64,000 nucleotides of DNA from an uncultured Acidobacteriota bacterium. GTDB taxonomy: Bacteria > Acidobacteriota > Terriglobia > Terriglobales > Acidobacteriaceae. Where the stretch lies: NCBI GenBank assembly GCA_903851035.1, contig CAINND010000037.1, forward strand, positions 62,001 through 126,000. The letters run 5' to 3'. Position numbers and translations under genes: made by a program. Every line of letters starts with the position of its first letter. Within the stretch, counting starts at the first letter, position 1. The notes beneath the pieces are model-generated. The model did not search any database. It was given only the letters and a program-made list of their open reading frames with translations, and was not told the DNA's origin. Shown here piece by piece: positions 10,059-28,009 of this stretch.

Positions 10059-10106
10059 GGGTGCCCTACCCTTCCGCCCGCCTTTTGGGCGGAGGGTGGG
10101 GTAGTT
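10059..10106 (+). repeat. REP-like hairpin at the 3' end of the RAYT gene
   Basis: Outer arms GGGTGCCCTACCC and GGGTGGGGTAGTT frame an inner stem CCGCCC/GGGCGG with loop GCCTTTT. It is the inverted mate of the element at 10691-10738. The RAYT stop codon lies inside it, so the last dozen residues of that protein are encoded by the hairpin. Confidence 0.85.
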
Positions 10107-10644
10107 CGGTTTTGTTCTTAAGAGCCACCTTCGGATTATCCCCAAGCATCTCTCTCTTCCGTGCCGTCCAATGAGATTCGACTTCCACCACTCCATCCTC
10201 CCCTAGCAGGTAATGGCGAAAGCTGCTCCAGGGCCAGTCCTCCGGCTTTTCCACCAACCCGCGCTCGACGGGATTGCGGTGCATGTAACGCAGCTTCTCA
10301 ACGCGCTTGCTCTCGCCGGAAACATTGAAGTCGTAGTAGCGGCGCTGCCAGAACGCCCCATCGGAATGGAGCGTGCGCAGCCGCCTGGTGACCGCCTGTT
10401 TCAGCATCTGGATGACGATTGGCAGAGTCTTCCGCCCCGGCTCGCTGATTAGCAGGTGCACATGCTCTGGCATAACCACATACCCGGTGACATAAAAGCC
10501 ATACCAGTTACGGGCACGCTCCAGTGCCTCCTCAAACGCGCGCCGGGCTTCAGGCTCAGCTAACAGAGGTTGCCGATGGTAGCAACTGAAGGTTAGGAAG
10601 TGCAGATCGCGGGTTTGCTGATACCGCTTCAGACTCCATGGCAT
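10066..10644 (-). CDS. REP-associated tyrosine transposase (RAYT, IS200/Y1 family)
   Basis: A 192-residue Y1 HUH nuclease. MPEHVHLLI at about residues 58-66 is the HUH (His-x-His) metal site, and FWQRRYYDFNV near residue 100 supplies the catalytic Tyr; YMHRNPVERGLV and WPWSSFRHY are typical of the RAYT branch. RAYTs bind and cut REP hairpins and are usually single-copy, domesticated genes. Two hairpins in opposite orientation flank it (10059 and 10691). The C-terminal residues ELPHPPPKRRAEG are read straight through the left hairpin, so the natural C-terminus may have been earlier. It starts at 10644 with MPWSLKRYQQTRDLHF, a common RAYT opening. It is probably the processing enzyme for the hairpins at 20-27 kb. 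Confidence 0.9.
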   Translation of the reverse strand: MPWSLKRYQQTRDLHFLTFSCYHRQPLLAEPEARRAFEEALERARNWYGFYVTGYVVMPEHVHLLISEPGRKTLPIVIQMLKQAVTRRLRTLHSDGAFWQRRYYDFNVSGESKRVEKLRYMHRNPVERGLVEKPEDWPWSSFRHYLLGEDGVVEVESHWTARKREMLGDNPKVALKNKTELPHPPPKRRAEG

Positions 10645-10690: not shown

Positions 10691-10738
10691 AACTACCCCA
10701 CCCTCCGCCCATCAGCAGGGCGGAAGGGTAGGGCACCC
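10691..10738 (-). repeat. REP-like hairpin upstream of the RAYT gene (inverted mate)
   Basis: Reverse complement of the 10059 element apart from the loop: AACTACCCCACCC, inner stem CCGCCC/GGGCGG with loop ATCAGCA, then GGGTAGGGCACCC. It stands 47 bases before the RAYT start codon. Confidence 0.85.
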
Positions 10739-10817
10739 AACATTTCGCATCGCACAAGAGCACCCATTGTCTGCCTCTCGCAACCTCCGAAACTTCCGCA
10801 ACCTCCGCAACTAGCTC

Positions 10818-19159: not shown

Positions 19160-19921
19160 ATGAGCATCGCCCAGCAACTGGCCCAGGTAAAGGAGCGCGT
19201 CGCCCAGGCCGCCCGCGCCGCCAATCGTGCTCCCGAAGATGTCCGCCTCATGGCCGTCAGCAAGACCCACCCACCCGCGGCCATCCTCCAGGCCATCTCC
19301 TGCGGCCAAATACTCTTCGGAGAAAACCGCGTGCAGGAGTGGGAGTCAAAGCGCGAAGAAGTCCTTGCCTCGCCTTTATTGGTCGCCGCGTCCTCCAGTT
19401 CGCCTGCTCCCAAAATCCAGATGCACCTCATCGGCCACCTGCAATCCAACAAAGCCGCCAAGGCCGCCGAGCTCTTTGATGCCATCGATAGCGTCGACAG
19501 CCTGCGCCTCGCCGAGCGCCTCAACCAATCCGCCGCGCGCCTCAACAAAATTCTCAACATCCTCGTCGAGGTCAACGTCGGCGGCGAACTCAGCAAGGCC
19601 GGGCTGGCCCCCACCTCGCCCGAGCTCCTCGCCCTCTTCGACGCCTCCTCGCGCCTCACCCACCTGCGCCTGCTGGGGCTTATGACCGTGCCGCCCTTCA
19701 CCACGGACCCCGCCGGCGCGCGCCCCTACTTCGTGCAGCTTCGCCAGCTGCGCGACCAGCTCCGCCAGCGCACCGGACTGCCCCTGCCCGAGCTTTCCAT
19801 GGGCATGTCGCACGACTTCGAAATCGCCATCCAGGAAGGCTCCACCTGCGTCCGTGTCGGCACCGCCATCTTCGGCCAGCGCGACTATTCTTCGCCAACC
19901 GCTGCGCCCTCGGAGTCATGA
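19160..19921 (+). CDS. yggS: YggS/PROSC-family pyridoxal-phosphate-binding protein
   Basis: A 253-residue single-domain alanine-racemase-like barrel that carries PLP and helps keep B6 vitamers and amino-acid pools in balance. Lys35 in MAVSKTHPP is the Schiff-base lysine; FGENRVQEW, HLIGHLQSNKA and LSMGMSHDFEIAIQEGSTCV followed by RVGTAIFG are the family signatures, the last binding the phosphate. The start at 19160 lies 13 bases past a weak purine run. Its stop overlaps the next start by four bases (ATGA), and the coupling to a DUF167 protein is the arrangement seen in many bacteria as yggS-yggU. Confidence 0.96.
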   Translation: MSIAQQLAQVKERVAQAARAANRAPEDVRLMAVSKTHPPAAILQAISCGQILFGENRVQEWESKREEVLASPLLVAASSSSPAPKIQMHLIGHLQSNKAAKAAELFDAIDSVDSLRLAERLNQSAARLNKILNILVEVNVGGELSKAGLAPTSPELLALFDASSRLTHLRLLGLMTVPPFTTDPAGARPYFVQLRQLRDQLRQRTGLPLPELSMGMSHDFEIAIQEGSTCVRVGTAIFGQRDYSSPTAAPSES

Positions 19922-20214
19922 CCATGCCCGTTGACCTTCGCGCCACCAAGGACGGAGTGCAGTTCGCCCTGCGCGTGCAGCCCCGCGCCAGCCGCACCGC
20001 CCTCGCGGGCACCATAGGCGAGGCCATCAAGCTGGCCATCACCGCTCCGCCCGTTGAAGGCAAGGCCAACCAGGCGGTCGTGGACTTCTTCGCCAAGCTC
20101 TTCGGCGTCAGCAAATCATCGGTAGAAATCGTCAGCGGAGAAACCGGCCGCAACAAACTCGTCCGCGTCCGCGGCATCACCCTCGAACAGGCCCGCCACG
20201 CCCTCGACGTCTGA
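19918..20214 (+). CDS. DUF167 (YggU) family protein
   Basis: A 98-residue protein of the DUF167 family. VQFALRVQPRASRTAL, ITAPPVEGKANQAVVDFFAK and VSKSSVEIVSGETGRNKLVR are the conserved blocks in the usual order. The fold is a small alpha/beta domain, cytoplasmic; its function is not established. It is translationally coupled to yggS by ATGA. The transcript ends without an obvious terminator, but REP-like hairpins begin 17 bases past the stop and may end or protect the message. Confidence 0.93.
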   Translation: MTMPVDLRATKDGVQFALRVQPRASRTALAGTIGEAIKLAITAPPVEGKANQAVVDFFAKLFGVSKSSVEIVSGETGRNKLVRVRGITLEQARHALDV

Positions 20215-20230
20215 ATTCTTATTGGCAGCT

Positions 20231-20420
20231 GGGTGCCCCATCCTAGCCGTAGTTGCTAGGGTGGGGAAGTTGCTTTTGCATTTGTTCTTGTTTTTGAAGT
20301 GTTATCCTGAGCGCAGCGAAGGACCCCCGCGCGGCTGACACCATCAGTGCCGCTCCAGGTCACCGATCACAAATTTACGGGTGCCCCATCTCTGGGCTGC
20401 ATTTGGCCCGACGTGGAAGG
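20231..20420 (+). repeat. REP-like hairpins and conserved 27-base block
   Basis: The first hairpin (20231-20272) is GGGTGCCCCA, inner stem TCCTAGC/GCTAGGG with loop CGTAGTT, and TGGGG. A T-rich spacer follows, then the block TGTTATCCTGAGCGCAGCGA with GAAGGACCC (20300-20326), then a shared stretch GGCTGACACCATCAGTGCCG, and a second, more diverged hairpin from about 20378. The same order of parts recurs at 21.5 and 24.4 kb. Confidence 0.8.
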
Positions 20421-20437
20421 CAGAGACGCCTGGTTAC

Positions 20438-21265
20438 TCAGTACTCTGTCTCAGTTTTATCCGATGGCGGCTGCAGGAAGCTGTCAATACACTGGGACAA
20501 CTGCGAGTCCACTTCGTCTGCAATCAGCATAACGTCGGGCAGCACACGGCTGAAGTCAACGCCATTGAGGTTGCGCTGGATCGTCTCAAAGATGCTGACT
20601 TGGAGGATGCGCGATTCCTGAATAATGAGCGCCGCGCTGTAGCCCTGCCGTTTACGAACAACTCCATGGGCCACGGCCGCCGGAGAATGGAGCGCCGCGG
20701 CTTCAATCTCACGGGTCTTGCGGAGGCGCGTAACGATGTTCCCGACTATCTCAGGCACAAAGCTCGTGCGGTCAGCGGTAGAAAGCTGAATCGCGGCAAG
20801 CTCCTCATTTTGCTCTACGCGCCACAGCCACCGCTCAACCGTGGTGCCCACTTCGCGCTCCAGGATGCTGGCGACGGTTTCCTTCGTTAGCGTTGCCCTG
20901 GGCACTCTGTCGTTGTTCTTGCTGTGAATCATTTCAGAGAGTGCCCTGATGCCAATCGGCTTGGAGAGAACGCGATCCGCATCAAGAGCGATGGAGTCCA
21001 TGGCCCTTTCCACGTCGGGGAAACCGCTCACGATGATGGTCTGCGCGTTGGGATGGACATGGCGCATGGCGGTGACAAGCCCGAAGCCGTCTCCCGCATC
21101 CGGTAAATGAAGGTCCGTTACCAGTACGTCAAATTTTTGAGAAACAATTTGCTGGAGTGCATCTTTGACGCTGCCCGCCGCTACAACTTCAAACCCCATC
21201 AGTGCCAGTCCCTCTTCAATCGAAGCGCGGACATGGTCATCATCATCAACTAATAGAATTCTCAT
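20438..21265 (-). CDS. Response regulator with RsbRD-like helical C-terminal domain
   Basis: A 275-residue cytoplasmic protein. Residues 1-115 are a CheY-like receiver: RILLVDDDDHVRASIEEGL gives the acidic pocket, FDVLVTDLHLPD the phospho-Asp, and KPI the conserved Lys. There is no DNA-binding domain. Residues 125-275 are helical (VASILEREVGTTVERWLWRV ... VPEIVGNIVTRLR) and resemble the N-terminal domain of RsbR co-antagonists and some sensor kinases, so it may work through protein contact. ATG at 21265 has GGAG upstream; a longer frame to 21313 lacks one. No kinase gene is adjacent, and hairpin repeats lie on both sides. Confidence 0.8.
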   Translation of the reverse strand: MRILLVDDDDHVRASIEEGLALMGFEVVAAGSVKDALQQIVSQKFDVLVTDLHLPDAGDGFGLVTAMRHVHPNAQTIIVSGFPDVERAMDSIALDADRVLSKPIGIRALSEMIHSKNNDRVPRATLTKETVASILEREVGTTVERWLWRVEQNEELAAIQLSTADRTSFVPEIVGNIVTRLRKTREIEAAALHSPAAVAHGVVRKRQGYSAALIIQESRILQVSIFETIQRNLNGVDFSRVLPDVMLIADEVDSQLSQCIDSFLQPPSDKTETEY

Positions 21266-21486
21266 ATTGTCTCCGGGCGATCTCGAAATTTCATCTCCCG
21301 TGACCTCATACATGGCGACAGATTTATTGAGTCCATAGCACGTTTATCTGGCCCATAGCGCGAACAACGTGAACCCGGCATTTTTTCCTATCCATCACCT
21401 ATATCAGACACCTGTGAATATCCATAATCAAATCTAAATGGGTGACAAAAAGGCAGTTGTCTCACTTCTGGAATCTTCATATTTAA

Positions 21487-21830
21487 GGCACGGGTGCCCT
21501 ATGTCTGGCCTGCATTTGGCCAGCCGTGGGAGACAGCCAAGCCGGGTGCCCCATCCTTCCGCCTTCTGTTGGCGTAGGGTGGGGTAGTTGCCTTTGCCTT
21601 TGCTCTTGCTCTTGATGTTGTCTTTGCTCTTGAAGTGTCATCCTGAGCGCAGCGAAGGACCCCCGCGCGGCTGACACAATCAGTGCCGCTCCAGGTCACC
21701 AATCAAGAATTGCCGGGTGCCTTATCCTGGCCGTAGTTGCCAGGGTGGGGTAGTTGACGTTGCCTTTGCTCTTGTTCCTGAACTGTCATCCCGAGCGAAG
21801 TCGAGGGACCCCTATCCCATCCGTTACACC
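21487..21830 (+). repeat. REP-like hairpin cluster
   Basis: Three hairpins: 21490-21525 (diverged, GTCTGGCC/GGCCAGCC), 21544-21590 (TCCTTCCGCC/GGCGTAGGG) and 21715-21756 (TCCTGGC/GCCAGGG). Between the last two are the block TGTCATCCTGAGCG...GAAGGACCC (21636) and the shared GCGGCTGACACAATCAGTGC stretch. A variant of the block with CCGAGCGAAGTCGAGGGACC follows at 21784. It lies upstream of the symporter gene. The part 21266-21486, upstream of the response regulator, shows nothing recognisable. Confidence 0.8.
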
Positions 21831-21893
21831 CCATCCCCACCCGATTCCCTGTAAACTAAATCCCATCGGATTCCCGCCTCTTCAGGAGCGCAG

Positions 21894-23366
21894 ATGTTGA
21901 ATCTTTACGCCGTGGTCCTCACGGTCATCGTGGTAGCTCTGCTCACCGTCAGCCTGTGGCAGGTGCGCAAGGTGCACACCAAGGCGGACTACCTTGTCGC
22001 CGGGCGTTCTCTCCCGGCCTACGTTCTGGTCTTCACTCTTTTGTCTTCTTGGATCGGTGCCGGCTCGCTCTTTGCCGGGGCGGAGAACGCATTCCGCAAC
22101 GGCTTTGCCGCCCTCTGGCAGCCCGCCGGAGGCTGGCTCGGCCTGCTCATCATCTTTTTTGTCGCGCCCCGCGCTCGCAAGTTCGCCCAGTTCACCATTC
22201 CAGATCTGCTCGAGGCGCGCTACAACACCGCCGCTCGCATCCTCGGCACCATCGCCATTTTGTTTGCGTACACGGCCATCACCAGCTACCAGTTCCGCGC
22301 CGGAGGTGACATCCTCCACCTCATCTTTCCCGACGTCGCCAAGGCGCAGGGCACCATCATCATCGCCATCTTCGTCGTCGTCTTCACCGCCCTCGCCGGC
22401 ATGGCCAGCGTGGCTTACATGGATGTCTTCATCGGCGTGTTGATTACCGTCACCGGCTTCATCGCCCTGCCCGCCATCTTCCATCAGGTCGGCGGCTGGG
22501 CCGGATTGCACCAGGTCCTGCCCGCCACGCACTTCACCCTCTTCGGCGAATGGGGCCTCGCTCCCGGCCAGTGTGGACGCAATCGCCACGAGGCCCTCAT
22601 CAAGGCCATGGAATACTTCCTGCCGACCTTTCTTCTCATGATCGGCAACCAGAGCATGTACCAGAAATTTTTCTCCGCCAAAACCGAGCGCGATGCCAGC
22701 GTCGCCGTCGTCGGCTGGGTCTTCGGCACCGTCGTTCTTGAGACGCTCATCGTCTCGCTCGCCGTCGTCGGCTCGGCCTTGTATTTCCATTCGCCGCTCG
22801 CCACGGCCGACTTCGCACCGCGCGAAATCATCCCCTTCACCGCCCGCCACTTCCTCCCCGCCGGTGTCGGAGCGCTTCTCATGGGCGCCGTCTTCGCCAA
22901 GGTCATCAGCACGGCCAACAACTATCTCTTCTCGCCCGCGACGAATCTCATCAACGACGTTTACACCCGCTTCCTGCGCCCCAACGCCAGCCAAAAGAAT
23001 GTCCTTCTGGTCTCGCGCTTTCTCGTCGTCGGACTCGGAGCCTGGGCCCTGTTGCAGGCCATCCAGTTGACCAGCGTCCTGGCCAAGGCCATGTACGCCT
23101 ACACCATCTACTCCGCCGCCATCACGCCCACCGTCATGGCAGCCTTCTTCTGGCCGCGCGCCACCAAGCAAGGTGCCGTCGCCTGCCTCCTCAGCGGCAC
23201 CGCCATCACCGTCGCATGGGACGCCCTCAAGCTCCACCTGCCGCGCCTCATCGGCGAGCGCGACGCCATCTTCCCGGCGCTCATCGTCAGCCTTGTTGCG
23301 CTCGTCGCGGTCAGCCTGCTCACCCCGCCGCCGCCCAAGGAGCAGATCGCCCAGTTCTACGAGTAG
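21894..23366 (+). CDS. Sodium:solute symporter family protein
   Basis: A 490-residue inner-membrane carrier with about 13 hydrophobic segments, the usual size of the SSS family. The conserved entry is ADYLVAGRSLPAYVLVFTLL and SSWIGAGSLFAGAENAF, with the family GRS and the Na-site helix; GVGALLMGAVFAKVISTANN around residue 320 is the conserved helix 8 region. Substrate cannot be told: sugars, proline, pantothenate and short acids are all carried by relatives. It starts at 21894 after TCAGGAGCGCAG, a good binding site. A secreted-protein gene follows by 56 bases and could share the transcript. Confidence 0.92.
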   Translation: MLNLYAVVLTVIVVALLTVSLWQVRKVHTKADYLVAGRSLPAYVLVFTLLSSWIGAGSLFAGAENAFRNGFAALWQPAGGWLGLLIIFFVAPRARKFAQFTIPDLLEARYNTAARILGTIAILFAYTAITSYQFRAGGDILHLIFPDVAKAQGTIIIAIFVVVFTALAGMASVAYMDVFIGVLITVTGFIALPAIFHQVGGWAGLHQVLPATHFTLFGEWGLAPGQCGRNRHEALIKAMEYFLPTFLLMIGNQSMYQKFFSAKTERDASVAVVGWVFGTVVLETLIVSLAVVGSALYFHSPLATADFAPREIIPFTARHFLPAGVGALLMGAVFAKVISTANNYLFSPATNLINDVYTRFLRPNASQKNVLLVSRFLVVGLGAWALLQAIQLTSVLAKAMYAYTIYSAAITPTVMAAFFWPRATKQGAVACLLSGTAITVAWDALKLHLPRLIGERDAIFPALIVSLVALVAVSLLTPPPPKEQIAQFYE

Positions 23367-23422
23367 AGGTTTGTGAGTAAAGTATTCGTATCAGCAGTGC
23401 CCTATATAAGGAGTGGCCATTT

Positions 23423-24247
23423 ATGATTCGGCCCATGCGTTCTGCCATCCTCGCCGCCACCGCTTGCCTCTCGTTCGGCCTCTGCTCGGCTGCGCAGGAT
23501 GCTCCGCCCGCCGCCACTCCCGCCGCCACCGCGCCCACCGCCAAGCCCGCCTGGCCGGATACCATCCAGGTCCAGCGCCCCGGCAAGCCCGTCACCTACG
23601 CCGACATGAACGGCTCGGCCCCCGAGGCCACCGGCACCAAAAAGCATCCCAACCATCGCGTGCCTCCCACCTGGAGCGCCTTCTACAACGCCGACAAGGG
23701 CGCTCTGCCAGACACCTCCACCTGGCGCGTGCTGCACAGCGCCCGCAACCTCGTCGTCAGCCTCGCCCCCGGCGCCGATTGGAGCCATTACTCCAAGGTG
23801 CAGCCCGGCCTCGCCCGCTACACCGGCACGGAAAATGACCTCACGCCCCGTCAGATCGCCAACGTCACCGATCTTTTGCAATCGCAGTTGGAAAAGAAGT
23901 TGCCCAAGGCGCGCCTCGGCACTCCTTCCACGGCCACCGGAACCCTGCAGGTGGACGTCGACCTCACCGACGCCATCGTCAACGATCCCTCCGGCATTGC
24001 CGGCATCGCCGTCAGCATGGCTCCCGCGCGCGAGTGGCGCAGCCAGGTCGTCGCCTGGGTGTGGGACGCGCAGACCCACCAGCCCGTCGCCTGCATTCGC
24101 CTCATCGCCGCCGACGATGCCTACGAAGTCGTCTGGGGCCTGCGTCCCACCGGACGCCTCCGCGCCGCTCTCCGCGCCCAAACCGATCTCCTCGCCGATA
24201 CCCTCGCCCACATCCAGCACAAACTTTCGACGACGCCTGCAAATTAG
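23423..24247 (+). CDS. Secreted protein, DUF3313-like
   Basis: A 274-residue protein with a signal peptide (ILAATACLSFGLCSAAQ) and an Ala/Pro-rich linker up to residue 55. The mature domain has WSHYSKVQPGLARYTG, then LQVDVDLTDAIVNDPSG, and a pattern of beta strands with VVAWVWDAQTHQPVACIRLI. This recalls the DUF3313 lipoproteins, which share the DYSKLKPG motif, but there is no lipobox Cys and the match is weak. A Met four codons in is an alternative start. It is followed by the densest REP-like region of the window. Confidence 0.65.
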   Translation: MIRPMRSAILAATACLSFGLCSAAQDAPPAATPAATAPTAKPAWPDTIQVQRPGKPVTYADMNGSAPEATGTKKHPNHRVPPTWSAFYNADKGALPDTSTWRVLHSARNLVVSLAPGADWSHYSKVQPGLARYTGTENDLTPRQIANVTDLLQSQLEKKLPKARLGTPSTATGTLQVDVDLTDAIVNDPSGIAGIAVSMAPAREWRSQVVAWVWDAQTHQPVACIRLIAADDAYEVVWGLRPTGRLRAALRAQTDLLADTLAHIQHKLSTTPAN

Positions 24248-24274
24248 CCGGCGCCCCATTTCTCATAAGTAGCC

Positions 24275-24399
24275 GGGTGCCCCATTCAAGCCTTCTGTCG
24301 GCTTGAGTGGGGCAGTTGCATCAGATTTTGTTTTCGTCTTTGATCTTGCATTTGCGCGGGTGCCCCACCCTAGCCGTAGTTGCTAGGGTGGGGTAGTTG
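24275..24399 (+). repeat. Two REP-like hairpins with different inner stems
   Basis: 24275-24316: CCCCATTCAAGCC / GGCTTGAGTGGGG with loop TTCTGTC. 24358-24399: CCCCACCCTAGC / GCTAGGGTGGGG with loop CGTAGTT, a perfect 12-pair stem. Both are framed by GGGTG and AGTTG. Confidence 0.85.
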
Positions 24400-24419
24400 A
24401 CGTTGCCTTTGCTCTTGCC

Positions 24420-24985
24420 GGGTGCCCCATCCTTCCGCCCTCTTTTGGCGGAGGGTGGGGTAGTTGCCTTTGCCTTTGCTCTTGTCTTTGTTTTTGTTTT
24501 TGAAGTGTCATCCTGAGCGCAGTGAAGGACCCAAGCACGGCCGACACTAGCCATGTCGCGCCAGGTCACCAATAAGAAATTGCGCGGGTGCCCCATCCTT
24601 CCGCCTCTTTTGGCGGAGGGTGGGGTAGTCGACTTTGCCTTTGCTCTTGTCTTTGTTTTTGTTTTTGAAGTGTCATCCTGAGCGCAGCGAAGGACCCAAG
24701 CACGGCTGACACTAGCCATGTCTCGCCAGGTCATCAACAAGAAATTGCGCGGGTGCCCCATCCTTCCGCCTTCTTTTGGCGGAGGGTGGGGTAGTTGCCT
24801 TTGCCTTTGCTCTTGTCTTTGTTTTTGTTTTTGAAGTGTCATCCTGAGCGCAGCGTAGGACCCAAGCACGGCTGACACTAGCCATGTCGCGCCAGGTCAC
24901 CAATAAGAAATTGCGCGGGTGCCCCATCCTTCCGCCTTCTTTTGGCGGAGGGTGGGGTAGTCGCCTTTGCCTTTGCTCTTGCTCT
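24420..24985 (+). repeat. 166-base tandem repeat array built on REP hairpins
   Basis: Units start at 24420, 24586, 24751 and 24917, periods of 166, 165 and 166 bases; the fourth is partial. Each unit holds a hairpin (CCCCATCCTTCCGCC / GGCGGAGGGTGGGG), a pyrimidine-rich tract of TTGCCTTTGCTCTTG type, the block TGTCATCCTGAGCG...GGACCC, and a spacer with ACACTAGCCATGTCGCGCCA ending AAGAAATTGCGC. Copies differ at few positions, so the expansion is recent. It runs up to within 50 bases of the AlkD-like gene. Confidence 0.9.
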
Positions 24986-25033
24986 TCGCCGTACCCACCC
25001 AACATCTTCCCCTTCGCCCGCCTCTGTGTTTCA

Positions 25034-25786
25034 ATGTCGGGCATGGCAAAGCCCGCCGCCTACATCGCCGACCACCTCCGCCATGTGCTCATCAACGGAG
25101 CCAGCGCGCCGCACACCGCCGAGGTCGAGTGGTTCTTCAAACAGGAAATCCAGTCCCGCGGCTGGTACACCGGAGAGCTCCGCAAACTCGCCCGCCGCTT
25201 CTGCCGCGTCATCCTGCACGATGCCTCGCTCGACTACCTCGTCCAGGTCGCCGACCAGCTCTTCCAGGGCAACGTGTTGGAAGAAAAAGTCCTCGCCGTG
25301 CTGCTCCTCCAGCCGCACGCCGCCAAGTGCACGCCCGCGCACTTCGAACTCTTCTGCTCATGGCTGGATCGCGTCAGCACCTGGGCAGATCACGACGGCC
25401 TCGTGCAATACCTCATCGGCCCCATGATCGTCCTCGACCCTTCGCGCCGCCGCCGCGTGTACGAGTGGGCGGCCTCACCCGACCGCTGGCACCGCCGCGC
25501 CTCGGCCGTCGCCCTGCTGCGCGGCACTAACCTCGGACTCTTCTACCCCGACGTCCGCCGCATCACCAAACTGCTTCTCCACGACGAAGACCTCATGGTG
25601 CAGAAGGGACTCGGCTGGCTGCTGCGCGAAACCGTCCGCTTCGATAACCAGGCCACCATGCCGCTGCTGATGTCCATCCGCAAGACAGCGCCCAGACTCG
25701 TCCTCCGCACCGCCTGCGAGCGCCTGGCCCCCACTCTGCGCGAAAAAGTAATGCAGCGCGAAGCCAAGACCATAAAAGAAAAATGA
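25034..25786 (+). CDS. DNA alkylation repair (AlkD-like HEAT-repeat) protein
   Basis: About 250 residues of helical repeats. WYTGELRKLARRFCR, VLEEKVLAVLLLQPHA, STWADHDGLVQYLIG and RWHRRASAVALLRGTN are the stacked HEAT-like units of the AlkC/AlkD DNA glycosylases, including the W-D pair that contacts alkylated bases in AlkD. It probably removes bulky or charged alkyl purines. The frame runs upstream into the tandem repeats, but that part is translated repeat; I start at ATG 25034 (MSGMAKPAAYIADHLR), or 25043. It overlaps the next gene by four bases, ATGA. Confidence 0.82.
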   Translation: MSGMAKPAAYIADHLRHVLINGASAPHTAEVEWFFKQEIQSRGWYTGELRKLARRFCRVILHDASLDYLVQVADQLFQGNVLEEKVLAVLLLQPHAAKCTPAHFELFCSWLDRVSTWADHDGLVQYLIGPMIVLDPSRRRRVYEWAASPDRWHRRASAVALLRGTNLGLFYPDVRRITKLLLHDEDLMVQKGLGWLLRETVRFDNQATMPLLMSIRKTAPRLVLRTACERLAPTLREKVMQREAKTIKEK

Positions 25787-26430
25787 GAAAAATAAAACTA
25801 TTCGCGTGCGCAGTTCTCTTGATGTTTATGTCGGCAGCTTCCTTAATAGCGCAGCATGTGAGTGGGACACCCGCTTCTCCGACCAGAGCTAAGCAGGTCG
25901 TGGAAGAATTCTGGACCCTTGAGACCTCGGGGAAGCTATTGACGGAGGATGGATGGAAAAGCGCCTGCAAGTATTACAAACAACCAGCTGGCGCAAGAGT
26001 TCGCAATTGGTCAATTATTGTTATTGCGCCTGACTGGTCGGTATGGCCGCCATACATCAGCGGCAATGCTGCTAGCGTCATAATTGGTTTAGAAATAATT
26101 GGGAAAGTGGATTCCCAGATGAACTTCAGCCCTCACCGGTCTGAAGCTGTCAAAGAAGGAGTTCAGTACGCGGTAGCCTTAACGAGGGAATCGTGCAGTC
26201 TTGGGCAGAATGGAAAACAGGTACCCAACGTCGCGGCCACTCCGGATTGGCGCCTCGACCGCCCATTGGGTACAGCCAATATGTATCTCAGCTTAGACGC
26301 CGCACTTCGCTATGTGGCGGGGGTCCACGAGCGGTCTCCTGAAGGCACGTTGAAAGGCAACGCTTCCGCAACGCTTCGCCGCCTTCAACGGTGGAACAAG
26401 ACAAGCTCACGACCCAGGCAACCGAATTAA
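25783..26430 (+). CDS. Secreted hypothetical protein coupled to the AlkD-like gene
   Basis: A 215-residue protein with a signal peptide (MRKIKLFACAVLLMFMSAAS, cleaved near IAQ). The mature part begins TPASPTRAKQVVEEFWTLET, a helix like those before NTF2-like domains, and contains WKSACKYYKQPAGARVRNW and a long beta-rich middle. I do not recognise a family. Base composition is clearly less GC-rich than its neighbour, and the gene sits between two repeat regions, so it may be a recent arrival despite the ATGA overlap with the AlkD-like gene. Confidence 0.6.
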   Translation: MRKIKLFACAVLLMFMSAASLIAQHVSGTPASPTRAKQVVEEFWTLETSGKLLTEDGWKSACKYYKQPAGARVRNWSIIVIAPDWSVWPPYISGNAASVIIGLEIIGKVDSQMNFSPHRSEAVKEGVQYAVALTRESCSLGQNGKQVPNVAATPDWRLDRPLGTANMYLSLDAALRYVAGVHERSPEGTLKGNASATLRRLQRWNKTSSRPRQPN

Positions 26431-26475
26431 CAGAGAGCTGGGTGGGGGCTGGCCCATCCTTTCCAGTACAACTCA

Positions 26476-26605
26476 CCGGGGATGCCCCACCCTTGTCGCG
26501 GATTCTTGCGACAGGGTGGGATGAGGGCGTGGCCGGGTGCCCCACCTTCGCCGCCGCAGTTGCCGGGTGCCCCACCTTCGCCGCCGCTGTTGCGGCTAAG
26601 GTGGG
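26476..26605 (+). repeat. REP-like hairpins with other inner stems
   Basis: 26476-26520: CCCACCCTTGTCGC / GCGACAGGGTGGG with one bulge. 26534-26605: two GGGTGCCCCACCTTCGCCGC copies in a row, of which the second pairs with GCGGCTAAGGTGGG. The first of the two seems to have lost its right arm. Confidence 0.75.
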
Positions 26606-26660
26606 AATCAGTCCGCTCCACCTCAGAGGGTTTTGCTCTTGATTTTGATTTTGTTTGAAG

Positions 26661-27058
26661 TGTCATCCTGAGCGGAGCGCAGCGGAGTCGAAGGACCCCT
26701 ACCCAATCTGTTCCGCAGATGTCGACCAAGGTCACCAATAGCGCCCCTCTAATTTCGAGAGAAATCCCCTCCAAACCCTGCACCAATTTCCAGTTTTCGC
26801 AGAGATTCGGCGGGTGGCCCATTCAAGCCCACAGTTGGCCTGAGTGGCGGGTGCCCCATCCTAGCCGCAGTTGCTAGGGTGGGGTAGTAGCTCTTGTTTT
26901 TGTCTTTGCTCTTGTTCTTGGTGTCATCCTGAGCGAAGCGAAGGACCCCTACCCAATCCGTTCCGCAGATGCCGCCCAAGGTCACCGACCGCGCCCCTCA
27001 AACATCGAAAGAAACCCACTCCAAACCCTGCACCAATTTCAGGTTTTCACAGAGATTC
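26661..27058 (+). repeat. Duplicated ~260-base noncoding unit with REP hairpins
   Basis: Two diverged copies, starting at the block TGTCATCCTGAGCG (26661 and 26922). Each continues through CCCCTACCCAATC, CCGCAGATG, CAAGGTCACC and CCAAACCCTGCACCAATTTC to CAGAGATTC. Between them (26812-26888) lie a hairpin TTCAAGCC/GGCCTGAG and a hairpin CCTAGC/GCTAGG. No coding capacity. Confidence 0.75.
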
Positions 27059-27376
27059 ACCCCTCTGCCCCCTTCCTCGCAGGGTTTTCAGATTTTTCCA
27101 GTTTTCCAAACAGGTTTTCTCGCCGCCACGGCCCAATAAGCCCCCACTCGCGCCAATCCCCTTCAAACCCTGTCGCGGAAAACAGGTTTTGAGGCAAAAA
27201 TCCCCCGCCCAGGCGCAAAATGCACCCCTAGCAGTAGCTCGATTCGATCTTCATCTAGGAAATTGACGCAGAAAAAACCGCAAAACGCCGCGCGCGCGCA
27301 GAGCACGCAAAACCACCACTCGCCAGCGTTAACTCAATCCAGTTCAGTGAGTTACAGGTAATTTACTGGAAAACAA
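27059..27376. other. Noncoding stretch with GGTTTTC-rich repeats
   Basis: No gene. It has scattered words such as CAGGTTTTC and AAACCCTG in both directions, and a CGCGCGCGC run near 27290. It reads as decayed copies of the same noncoding sequence as the unit to its left. Confidence 0.5.
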
Positions 27377-28009
27377 TTACGCCCTGGCCGGCTCCCGGCG
27401 CTTCATGGCCCACAAAACCACGCGCCACAGGAGCAGCACCGCCAGCACCGCAACGTATTGCAGCGCTTCGACTTTGTCCTTCTTCAGCGACCAGAAAAAG
27501 TGCCAGCAACCCAAGGCCGCCGCCACATACACCCAGCGATGCAAACTCGCCCATTTCTTGCCCAAACGTCGTATCGCCGCCTGCGTCGAGGTCACGGCTA
27601 AAGGCAGCAGAATCAGCCACGTAACGGTGCCAATCAGGATGAACGGACGCTTCAAAACATCGTGCGTCATTCGTCCCAGGTCGAAGCTCTGGTCCAGGAT
27701 GAGGTAGGTCAGCAAATGCAGTGTGGCGTAAAAGAATGCAAACAAACCAATTACGCGCCTGTACTGCACCAGCCACTGCACGCCGGTCAGCCGCCGCAGC
27801 GGAGTAATCGCCAGCCCCACCAGCAGCAAAATCAGCGCCGCCTGCCCCGTGCGGTGCGTCACGCGCTCCACGGGATTGGCGCCCAGGTGGCCGGTAAGTC
27901 CTTGATATACAAGCATGCCCAGCCAACGCAGGCACACCAGCCAGACCAGCGGTTTGAGGATCAGGTTGCGAGTCAGAGGCTTCTTGGGAGTCCGTGGCTC
28001 ATTCGTCAT
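27377..28009 (-). CDS. msrQ: MsrQ-type heme-binding membrane subunit (ferric-reductase-like)
   Basis: A 210-residue inner-membrane protein with six helices. NPVERVTHRTGQAALILLL, YRRVIGLFAFFYATLHLLTY and KWASLHRWVYVAAALGCWHF match MsrQ (YedZ), and the His residues in these helices are the b-type heme ligands. MsrQ passes electrons from the respiratory chain to MsrP, the periplasmic molybdenum enzyme that repairs methionine sulfoxide. No msrP gene lies on either side, so the partner must be elsewhere or the protein serves another acceptor. Start at 28009; left of it is the noncoding repeat region. Confidence 0.9.
   Translation of the reverse strand: MTNEPRTPKKPLTRNLILKPLVWLVCLRWLGMLVYQGLTGHLGANPVERVTHRTGQAALILLLVGLAITPLRRLTGVQWLVQYRRVIGLFAFFYATLHLLTYLILDQSFDLGRMTHDVLKRPFILIGTVTWLILLPLAVTSTQAAIRRLGKKWASLHRWVYVAAALGCWHFFWSLKKDKVEALQYVAVLAVLLLWRVVLWAMKRREPARA

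Follow-up and report, generated by a model that had tools for sequence, protein, structure and literature searches.

The DNA analyzed here is a stretch of 64,000 nt (hereafter the window) from an uncultured Acidobacteriota bacterium of the family Acidobacteriaceae (assembly GCA_903851035.1, contig CAINND010000037.1, positions 62,001 to 126,000, forward strand), whose draft genome (G000) comprises 3.26 Mb in 121 contigs. The window contains a gene for a predicted REP-associated tyrosine transposase (RAYT), where REP denotes a repetitive extragenic palindromic sequence, and a set of short hairpins, most of which lie between positions 20231 and 26888. An initial annotation described them as a REP-like family with a constant outer frame and exchanged inner stems. 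The features are given below, with the hairpins assigned to lettered classes by their inner arms.

10059..10101, plus strand: class B' hairpin at the 3' end of the RAYT gene; its CCCTACCC arm contains the stop codon TAG (minus strand, 10066-10068)
10066..10644, minus strand: predicted RAYT gene (protein P0001), 192 aa, HuH residues 61-63, catalytic Tyr120; based on PF01797, NF047646, 4er8, and motifs
10696..10738, minus strand: class B' hairpin past the RAYT 5' end, inverted relative to 10059..10101
20231..20266, plus strand: class A hairpin, CCTAGC/GCTAGG
20379..20416, plus strand: class H hairpin, decayed, CTCTGGGC/GCCCGACG, read from the sequence
21492..21530, plus strand: class H hairpin, GTCTGGCC/GGCCAGCC
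21544..21584, plus strand: class B hairpin, CCTTCCGCC, one arm mutated
21715..21750, plus strand: class A hairpin, CCTGGC/GCCAGG variant
24275..24312, plus strand: class C hairpin, TTCAAGCC/GGCTTGAG
24358..24393, plus strand: class A hairpin
24420..24460, plus strand: class B hairpin, copy 1 of a 165-166-bp tandem array
24586..24625, plus strand: class B hairpin, array copy 2
24751..24791, plus strand: class B hairpin, array copy 3
24917..24957, plus strand: class B hairpin, array copy 4
26480..26520, plus strand: class E hairpin, CCTTGTCGC/GCGACAGGG; the arm is one flank of RAYTs L083 and L097 of the relative G008
26535..26559, plus strand: class F hairpin, truncated
26565..26605, plus strand: class F hairpin, CTTCGCCGC/GCGGCTAAG; the same arm flanks RAYT L049 of the sister genome G003
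26812..26847, plus strand: class C hairpin, GTGG tag, shortened 3' edge
26849..26884, plus strand: class A hairpin

Frame and classes of the hairpins

With at most one mismatch, the word GGGTGCCCCA has 21 occurrences in the window, whereas 100 dinucleotide shuffles averaged 7.05 and did not exceed 17. Genome-wide, the pattern GGGTGCCCCA-N10..40-TGGGG gave 59 matches and none in the reversed control, and the shorter GTGSCCYAY-N14..34-GTGGG gave 125 (77 and 48 by strand) against 4 in the reversed control. Among 41 genomes, the frame was detected in 22, comprising 20 of 25 from the same family, 2 of 14 from the neighbouring family, and neither of two others; a few single hits in this count may be due to chance, with one control hit in each of five genomes. 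The words are short, and CCCC/GGGG stems form easily in GC-rich DNA, which would favour convergence or chance in GC-rich spacers as the source of the frame, but this is extremely improbable in view of the 59 matches against 0, the distribution over the two families, and the link to a single RAYT clade described below.

The family is hence real, although the strict string GGGTGCCCCA...TGGGGTAGTTG fits only four copies between 20231 and 26888 (21544, 24358, 24420, and 24751). The edges of other copies vary, with TAGTCG at 24586 and 24917, TAGTAG at 26849, AAGTTG at 20231, and CAGTTG at 24275, and copy 21715 shows GGGTGCCTTA at its 5' edge. Copies 26565 (CCTTCGCCGC) and 26480 (CCTTGTCGC) lack the ending TGGGGTAG altogether. 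In our reading, the constant frame consists of a 4-nt tag, GTG(C/G), and a basal stem, and has its counterpart in the GT(A/G)G tag that known REPs carry. The family also extends beyond the interval first noted, to 10059-10101 and 10696-10738 adjoining the RAYT gene.

Copies in this genome were counted within 383 kb, comprising the window and 22 further stretches, where a palindrome search returned 202 both-strand matches, reduced to 131 copies after one strand was chosen per element. Subsets of these were used for the neighbour count (119 copies with accepted tags), for gene context (116), and for pair cells and loops (113). GTGC is the tag of 104 of the 131 copies and GTGG that of 7. The primary hairpins flanking RAYT genes carry 25 GTGC, 7 GTGG, and 1 GTAC tags, and the GTGG-tagged members belong to the same RAYT clade. 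When RAYT-flanking hairpins of other genera were scanned by demanding GT(A/G)(C/G), 57 of 57 were tagged (GTGC 44, GTGG 13), and their basal stem covaried between CCCA/TGGG (29) and CCCG/CGGG (21).

Folding gave a single hairpin per element with a loop of mostly 7 nt, the palindrome (about 21-65 nt) lying directly 3' of the tag, as given for canonical REPs in PMC6006769. The inner arms are the class-specific part, reading CCTAGC in class A, CCTTCCGCC in B, TTCAAGCC in C, CCTAACC in D, CCTTGTCGC in E, CTTCGCCGC in F, and TCTGGCC in H, while class B' is a sub-form of B whose base reads CCCTACCC. Every inner arm listed by the initial annotation is present, but not all of them are perfectly self-complementary, as class B contains a bulged T and class F a conserved mismatch (CTTCGC/GCTAAG). 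Exactly one T.G wobble was found in 93 of 127 stems, summed over six classes with class D outside the count. Hairpins tagged with GTGG whose arms are of the CATCCGCC type, with a conserved C.A mismatch, were also observed at locus L089 (G003) and at several places of another sister genome, G002.

RAYT genes and their arm classes

Two Y1 transposase matches were found in the genome, one in the window and one on contig C92. The window protein P0001 is, judging from its sequence, a RAYT: it matched PF01797 with 48.3 bits and passed the curated NCBIfam model NF047646 (REP_Tyr_transpos) with 111.8 bits (cut-off 80), but stayed below the cut-off of the IS200 model (36.5 vs 55 bits). Its nearest solved chain is 4er8, the E. 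coli TnpArep (E 9.8e-7), to which P0001 was aligned for residue positions. It contains H61/H63 (HuH) and YMHRNP at 120, in agreement with the YxxxNP motif and single catalytic Tyr of RAYTs. In the clade described below, HuH was present in all 47 aligned rows and the Tyr in all 36 filled rows, 11 being gapped there. Neither RAYT matches the motif NP(L/V)(R/K)xG given for gammaproteobacterial RAYTs in the available part of PMC2817692, as P0001 reads NPVERG and the C92 RAYT NPVSRG. At residue E100, Asp was found in 37 of 38 filled clade rows, and at H101, Phe in 24, Arg in 11, and His in 2, with His in 8 of 16 sister rows. Residues around the WQ motif of E. coli TnpArep contact the GTAG tag according to the portions of PMC6006769 and PMC8266576 considered, and the change of tag from GTAG to GTGC may follow from such E100/H101 substitutions.

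The window RAYT lies between two inverted class B' hairpins and the C92 RAYT between two inverted class C hairpins. The idea of a REP-like family was thus largely borne out, with both RAYT genes found in the genome flanked in this manner by one class each. By a strict rule, both flanks were recognized in 26 of 49 clade records and not in 23. At L093 and L113 (G009) and L087 (G008), a second motif, GGTGGCCC(A/G)..CTTTTGA, was seen on the 5' side of the hairpin tag at a distance of about 40-50 nt; it is perhaps a further part of the element.

In 25 genomes, 88 transposase matches were obtained, of which 84 were fetched and 4 from the neighbouring family omitted. A tree of 54 RAYT domains, scoring at least 100 bits in our own profile, contained one clade of 28 (support 99/99) that includes all 24 domains marked as frame-flanked. 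Of its other four members, L090, L093b, and L051 also have frame hairpins, and L109 has the tag and stem base with no folded hairpin. The clade is seen mainly in this bacterial family, one member (L069) coming from the neighbouring family. Outside it, the RAYTs are accompanied by inverted repeats of other kinds, among which GTAG or GTGG is visible in several.

The tree was enlarged with loci of seven more genomes (30 loci taken from a second set of 40 matches, 10 being left aside) to 47 clade rows and 3 outgroup rows, using records with at least 76 aligned residues, excluding second-set records below 100 bits, and omitting five loci that lacked a frame hairpin (L202, L208, L211, L213, and L218). 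With arm labels of our own choice, the arm groups required 19 changes for 12 groups (11 labels plus 13 unlabelled rows), against a mean of 31 for shuffled labels, of which 0 of 200 reached 19 or fewer; labelled rows alone required 12. The 11 rows of class C RAYTs, which come from seven genomes in four genera, formed one clade (99/97), and 10 of the 11 keep CAAGCC. The mean arm distance was 0.13 for RAYTs differing by less than 20% in amino acids (6 pairs), 0.31 for 20-30% (15 pairs), and about 0.5 above 30%, compared with 0.66 for random 9-mers; 5 of 36 RAYT records had been dropped here for lack of a hairpin by the strict rule or for a short domain. Class F arms flank RAYT L049 and, as a variant, L094 (both G003), and H-like arms flank RAYT L115 (G001). 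The G008 RAYTs L083 and L097 each lie between two unlike arms, CTTTCGC and GTCGC.

That an arm class follows its RAYT lineage, imperfectly, is largely supported by these results: each RAYT found in this genome has one class, and lineages can be tracked in relatives, with exceptions and with class A untied to a RAYT in this genome. We therefore assign a probability of about 0.9 to the reading that the hairpins are REP-type, tagged with GTGC or GTGG, and that the arm classes belong to coexisting or past RAYT lineages. In line with this reading, classes with a resident RAYT (B, B', and C) show fewer pair cells that deviate from the class consensus, 20 of 856, than classes without one (A, D, F, and H), with 45 of 545, where part of the class A deviation is due to a wobble slot. 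Since separate REP families are tied, where testable, to different RAYTs, the unlike inner stems look like old lineages standing side by side, not freshly swapped parts. The frame would be what the RAYTs of the clade share in their hairpins, namely a GTGC/GTGG tag immediately preceding the hairpin on its 5' side and a stem base of CCCA/TGGG or CCCG/CGGG. The unlike arms would reflect several RAYT lineages that were resident together in the genome or passed through it, each having an arm class to itself. Classes B and B' would go with the window RAYT and class C with the C92 RAYT, while the arms of F, H, and E flank RAYTs of relatives. The enzyme would bind the hairpin as single-stranded DNA, reading tag, basal stem, and loop, and would nick it and spread copies, probably behind the replication fork. 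The RAYT linkage, the tracking of lineages, the covariation, the strand bias, and the direct arrangement of single units are observations, whereas cleavage, mobility, and the exact features read by the enzyme are inferred.

Several observations weigh against this reading. GTGC prevails in place of the GT(A/G)G tag of canonical REPs. Inverted doublets of the kind known as REPINs (REP doublets forming hairpins) or BIMEs (bacterial interspersed mosaic elements), the common mobile form of REPs, make up only 1 of 62 neighbour pairs. The Mantel correlation between arm and RAYT distance (r 0.166, reached in 7 of 2000 permutations) is weak past close relatives, and near-duplicate RAYTs of one genome contribute to it. 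The labels GTTCGC, GTCTCG, CTTGC, TTTCTCG, A, and B do not form single clades on the tree. The main gap in the explanation is the RAYT-less class A, which accounts for 24 of the 119 tagged copies and for which no RAYT was found in G000 or G001, the two class-A-rich genomes. Among 200 genomes of the family, class A was found in 3, with 21, 7, and 3 copies; the only CCTAGC-armed hairpins observed beside a RAYT are those flanking one in G024 and those close to one in G057, in both cases with a shorter loop and a CCCG base.

Change of the arms and arrangement of the copies

The initial annotation ascribed the unlike stems to template switching or hairpin-end repair, by which a new arm pair would be placed in a fixed frame in one event. 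One arm would serve a polymerase as template for the other, or resection of a hairpin end would be followed by its resynthesis. Creation and repair of hairpins by template switching have been described (PMC8794818, as far as its available text goes), and a few observations could be taken in its favour: the arms are less variable than the loop, whose positions 1-5 exceed them in per-site variability in all six classes measured, some two-sided changes exist, and L083 and L097 carry unlike arms at their two sides. However, of 1401 pair cells compared with the class consensus in 113 copies, 1336 were identical, 56 had one-sided changes (29 still paired and 27 broken), and 9 had two-sided changes (8 paired and 1 broken). 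Loop inversion, one footprint of template switching, was found in 0 of 113 loops, since no loop begins with AA and 99 of 113 end in TT. The class C core kept in 10 of 11 RAYTs over four genera likewise argues against replacement.

Intermediates between arms are visible too. In class A, two stem positions vary via CTAG, CTGG, CCGG, and CCAG, with covariation T-A/C-G and A-T/G-C and with A.C and G.T intermediates. The sister genome G002 contains the series TTCAAGCC, TTCAACC, TTCAACG, TCCAACG, CTCAACG, CACAACG, and CCCAACG; this search gave 51 matches, some nested (the same element twice) or unrelated, against 9 in the reversed control. The copy of the class-C-clade RAYT in G002 is short, with an open reading frame of 115 aa. 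The continuum of point changes that had been named as refuting exchange does exist within lineages, while between the major classes none was seen inside this genome. The arms would thus shift slowly along RAYT lineages, by covarying point changes and by lengthening or shortening of the stem at the loop end.

One orthologous region was compared between genomes. The gap between yggU and a symporter gene contains hairpins and an extra gene in G000, about 80 bp in G002, and other repeats in G001, while G003 has a class C pair after yggU that surrounds a putative RAYT remnant. Between the symporter gene and a DNA-alkylation-repair-like gene, G001 has about 43 bp and G000 a gene and the array. Whole insertions thus differ, not arms alone, indicating gain and loss of elements rather than in-place exchange in this region. 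Wholesale replacement of arms in place is not supported, and we regard it as quite unlikely; template switching is possible for single steps, yet is not needed for the unlike words.

The copies away from RAYT genes lie singly or in direct clusters. Neighbours at most 400 bp apart were on the same strand in 61 cases and on opposite strands in 1 among the 119 copies, 24 being singlets; the pairs flanking RAYT genes, being spaced by more than 400 bp, fall outside this count. Class B forms the tandem of four copies at 165-166 bp. A second repeat, TGTCATCCTGAGCG..GAAGGACCC, which we take to be a widespread bacterial repeat, occurs downstream of many hairpins (20300-20326, 21636-21662, 24506-24532, 26661-26698, and 26922-26948) and is included in the 165-bp unit of the array. 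Degenerate hexamer tracts (TTGNNY)n were observed 3' of many hairpins, e.g., at 21588-21630, 24464-24505, and 24795-24840; of 27 tracts with at least 4 units, 25 begin within 110 nt 3' of a same-strand hairpin. A looser sign, TTG at period 6, was seen after hairpins of G001 (12 of 50) and G002 (4 of 8) but not of G003 (0 of 23). Degenerate tracts of CAACCTCCGAAAC or GGTTTCAAAG also lie close to hairpins (window 10780-10815 and L034:7931-7976).

With genes predicted by our simple hexamer model, 94 of 116 copies were intergenic, 8 lay in predicted genes, and 14 at stretch edges, so that the high copy number and intergenic location of canonical REPs are found here as well. Of the intergenic copies, 54 lie in co-directional, 33 in convergent, and 7 in divergent gaps, against 97, 31, and 32 gaps of these kinds in a background of 160 gaps of at least 60 nt. 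This excess of convergent gaps, together with the strong stems and a T-rich 3' side in many copies, would suit hairpins with a main role in RNA, as intrinsic terminators or as stabilizers of mRNA, whose arms would be free to differ since only stability counts. In co-directional gaps, however, the element strand agreed with transcription in 27 cases and disagreed in 27, for which reason a terminator as the main role was set aside; the arms are conserved in sequence besides pairing, and inverted pairs flank RAYT genes. A known structured RNA was likewise rejected, as an Rfam search of window positions 19800-27400 yielded no more than three matches, each falling short of its gathering score and belonging to an unrelated, implausible kind. 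A principal role in RNA is hence unlikely.

In stretches L019-L040 and the window, hairpin strand tracks GC skew, not gene direction. For 109 copies (four RAYT-flanking ones omitted), the strand was rank-correlated with third-position GC skew, corrected for coding (rho -0.78 across 20 stretches, p 5e-5), although stretches partly share contigs and are not fully independent. The signs agreed in 15 of 19 cases for third-position skew (p 0.019) and 17 of 21 for intergenic skew (p 0.007), and the agreement per element was weaker, 63 of 91 copies in stretches with genes on both strands. Ribosomal protein L2 (PF00181), sought as a leading-strand marker, gave no match in G000, whose listed completeness is 98.93%.

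Stop codons in hairpins and comparison with known systems

The downstream tagged hairpin contains the stop codon of the RAYT gene, and with it encodes the final residues of the protein, in 12 of the 29 records having such a hairpin. The window RAYT ends in ELPHPPPKRRAEG, its stop TAG being taken from GGGTAGGG. In class C, the stop lies in the hairpin at the identical place in 6 of 7 records, L111 being a broken copy, and the proteins end in LPHSSQ..A (L034, L085, L212, and L214), LPPHSSQNRA (L207), or LPRSSQRMA (L204); in L034, the stop TGA comes from GGCTTGA in the hairpin at L034:8616-8653. REPs near or immediately downstream of the stop have been reported (PMC2817692), as have REPs inserted in frame within some RAYT genes (PMC6006769), but no report of an overlap between REP and stop was found in the available parts of these two articles. 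As a tentative proposal, whose odds we place somewhat below even, the clade may have a life cycle unlike that of known REPINs: its mobile unit would be a single hairpin instead of an inverted doublet, placed in one orientation to the fork and encoding the tail and stop of the RAYT that cuts it. If true, the overlap would couple the enzyme tail to the arm and could explain the near-constant class C arms across genera.

Comparisons with known systems refer to the accessible portions of the articles cited. With the gammaproteobacterial REP/RAYT systems (REPtrons; PMC3686654 and PMC2817692), the present family shares a RAYT between two inverted hairpins, a 5' tag followed by a variable palindrome, numerous copies scattered between genes, the presence of several classes in a genome, some seemingly outliving their RAYT, and related RAYTs beside different palindromes. 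Unlike in REPtrons, the tag is mostly GTGC, the stem base is conserved as well, the strand follows GC skew, and copies away from RAYTs are hardly ever inverted doublets. Pseudomonas fluorescens REPINs (PMC3116915) are likewise RAYT-linked short hairpins with tandem arrays that include flanks, but they are inverted REP doublets, whereas 61 of 62 close neighbours here are on the same strand. The class 3 TnpA-Y1 hairpins of Acidobacteria and Planctomycetes (PMC6006769) are also atypical high-copy hairpins beside a Y1 enzyme, but were ruled out by their CnGA foot and listed Y motif without NP, which differ from GTGC/GTGG and YMHRNP. The ends of IS200/IS605 elements (IS608 and ISDra2; PMC6006769 and PMC8266576) share the HuH Y1 enzyme and a hairpin with a 5' tetranucleotide, and a replication-tied strand bias has been reported for that family in the same articles. 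P0001 differs by its score below the IS200 cut-off, and no IS-like unit was seen in a search confined to RAYT flanks. In the titles and abstract openings of the literature surveyed, no description of this hairpin family was found.

The two-armed RAYTs of G008 and the graded arms would fit the "orthoswitch" of REP classes, in which the palindromes take on new sequences yet stay palindromic and matched to their RAYT, and about whose mechanism the authors can, in the text available, only speculate (PMC3686654). For this phenomenon, the present family offers a graded series: a class kept over four genera, a sister genome with stepwise arms, and RAYTs with two unlike ends. The strand bias and single units provide a usable system for asking whether RAYTs act at the fork as IS200/IS605 enzymes do. 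For annotation, the reading accounts for the many confusing hairpins that lie between genes in one bacterial family.

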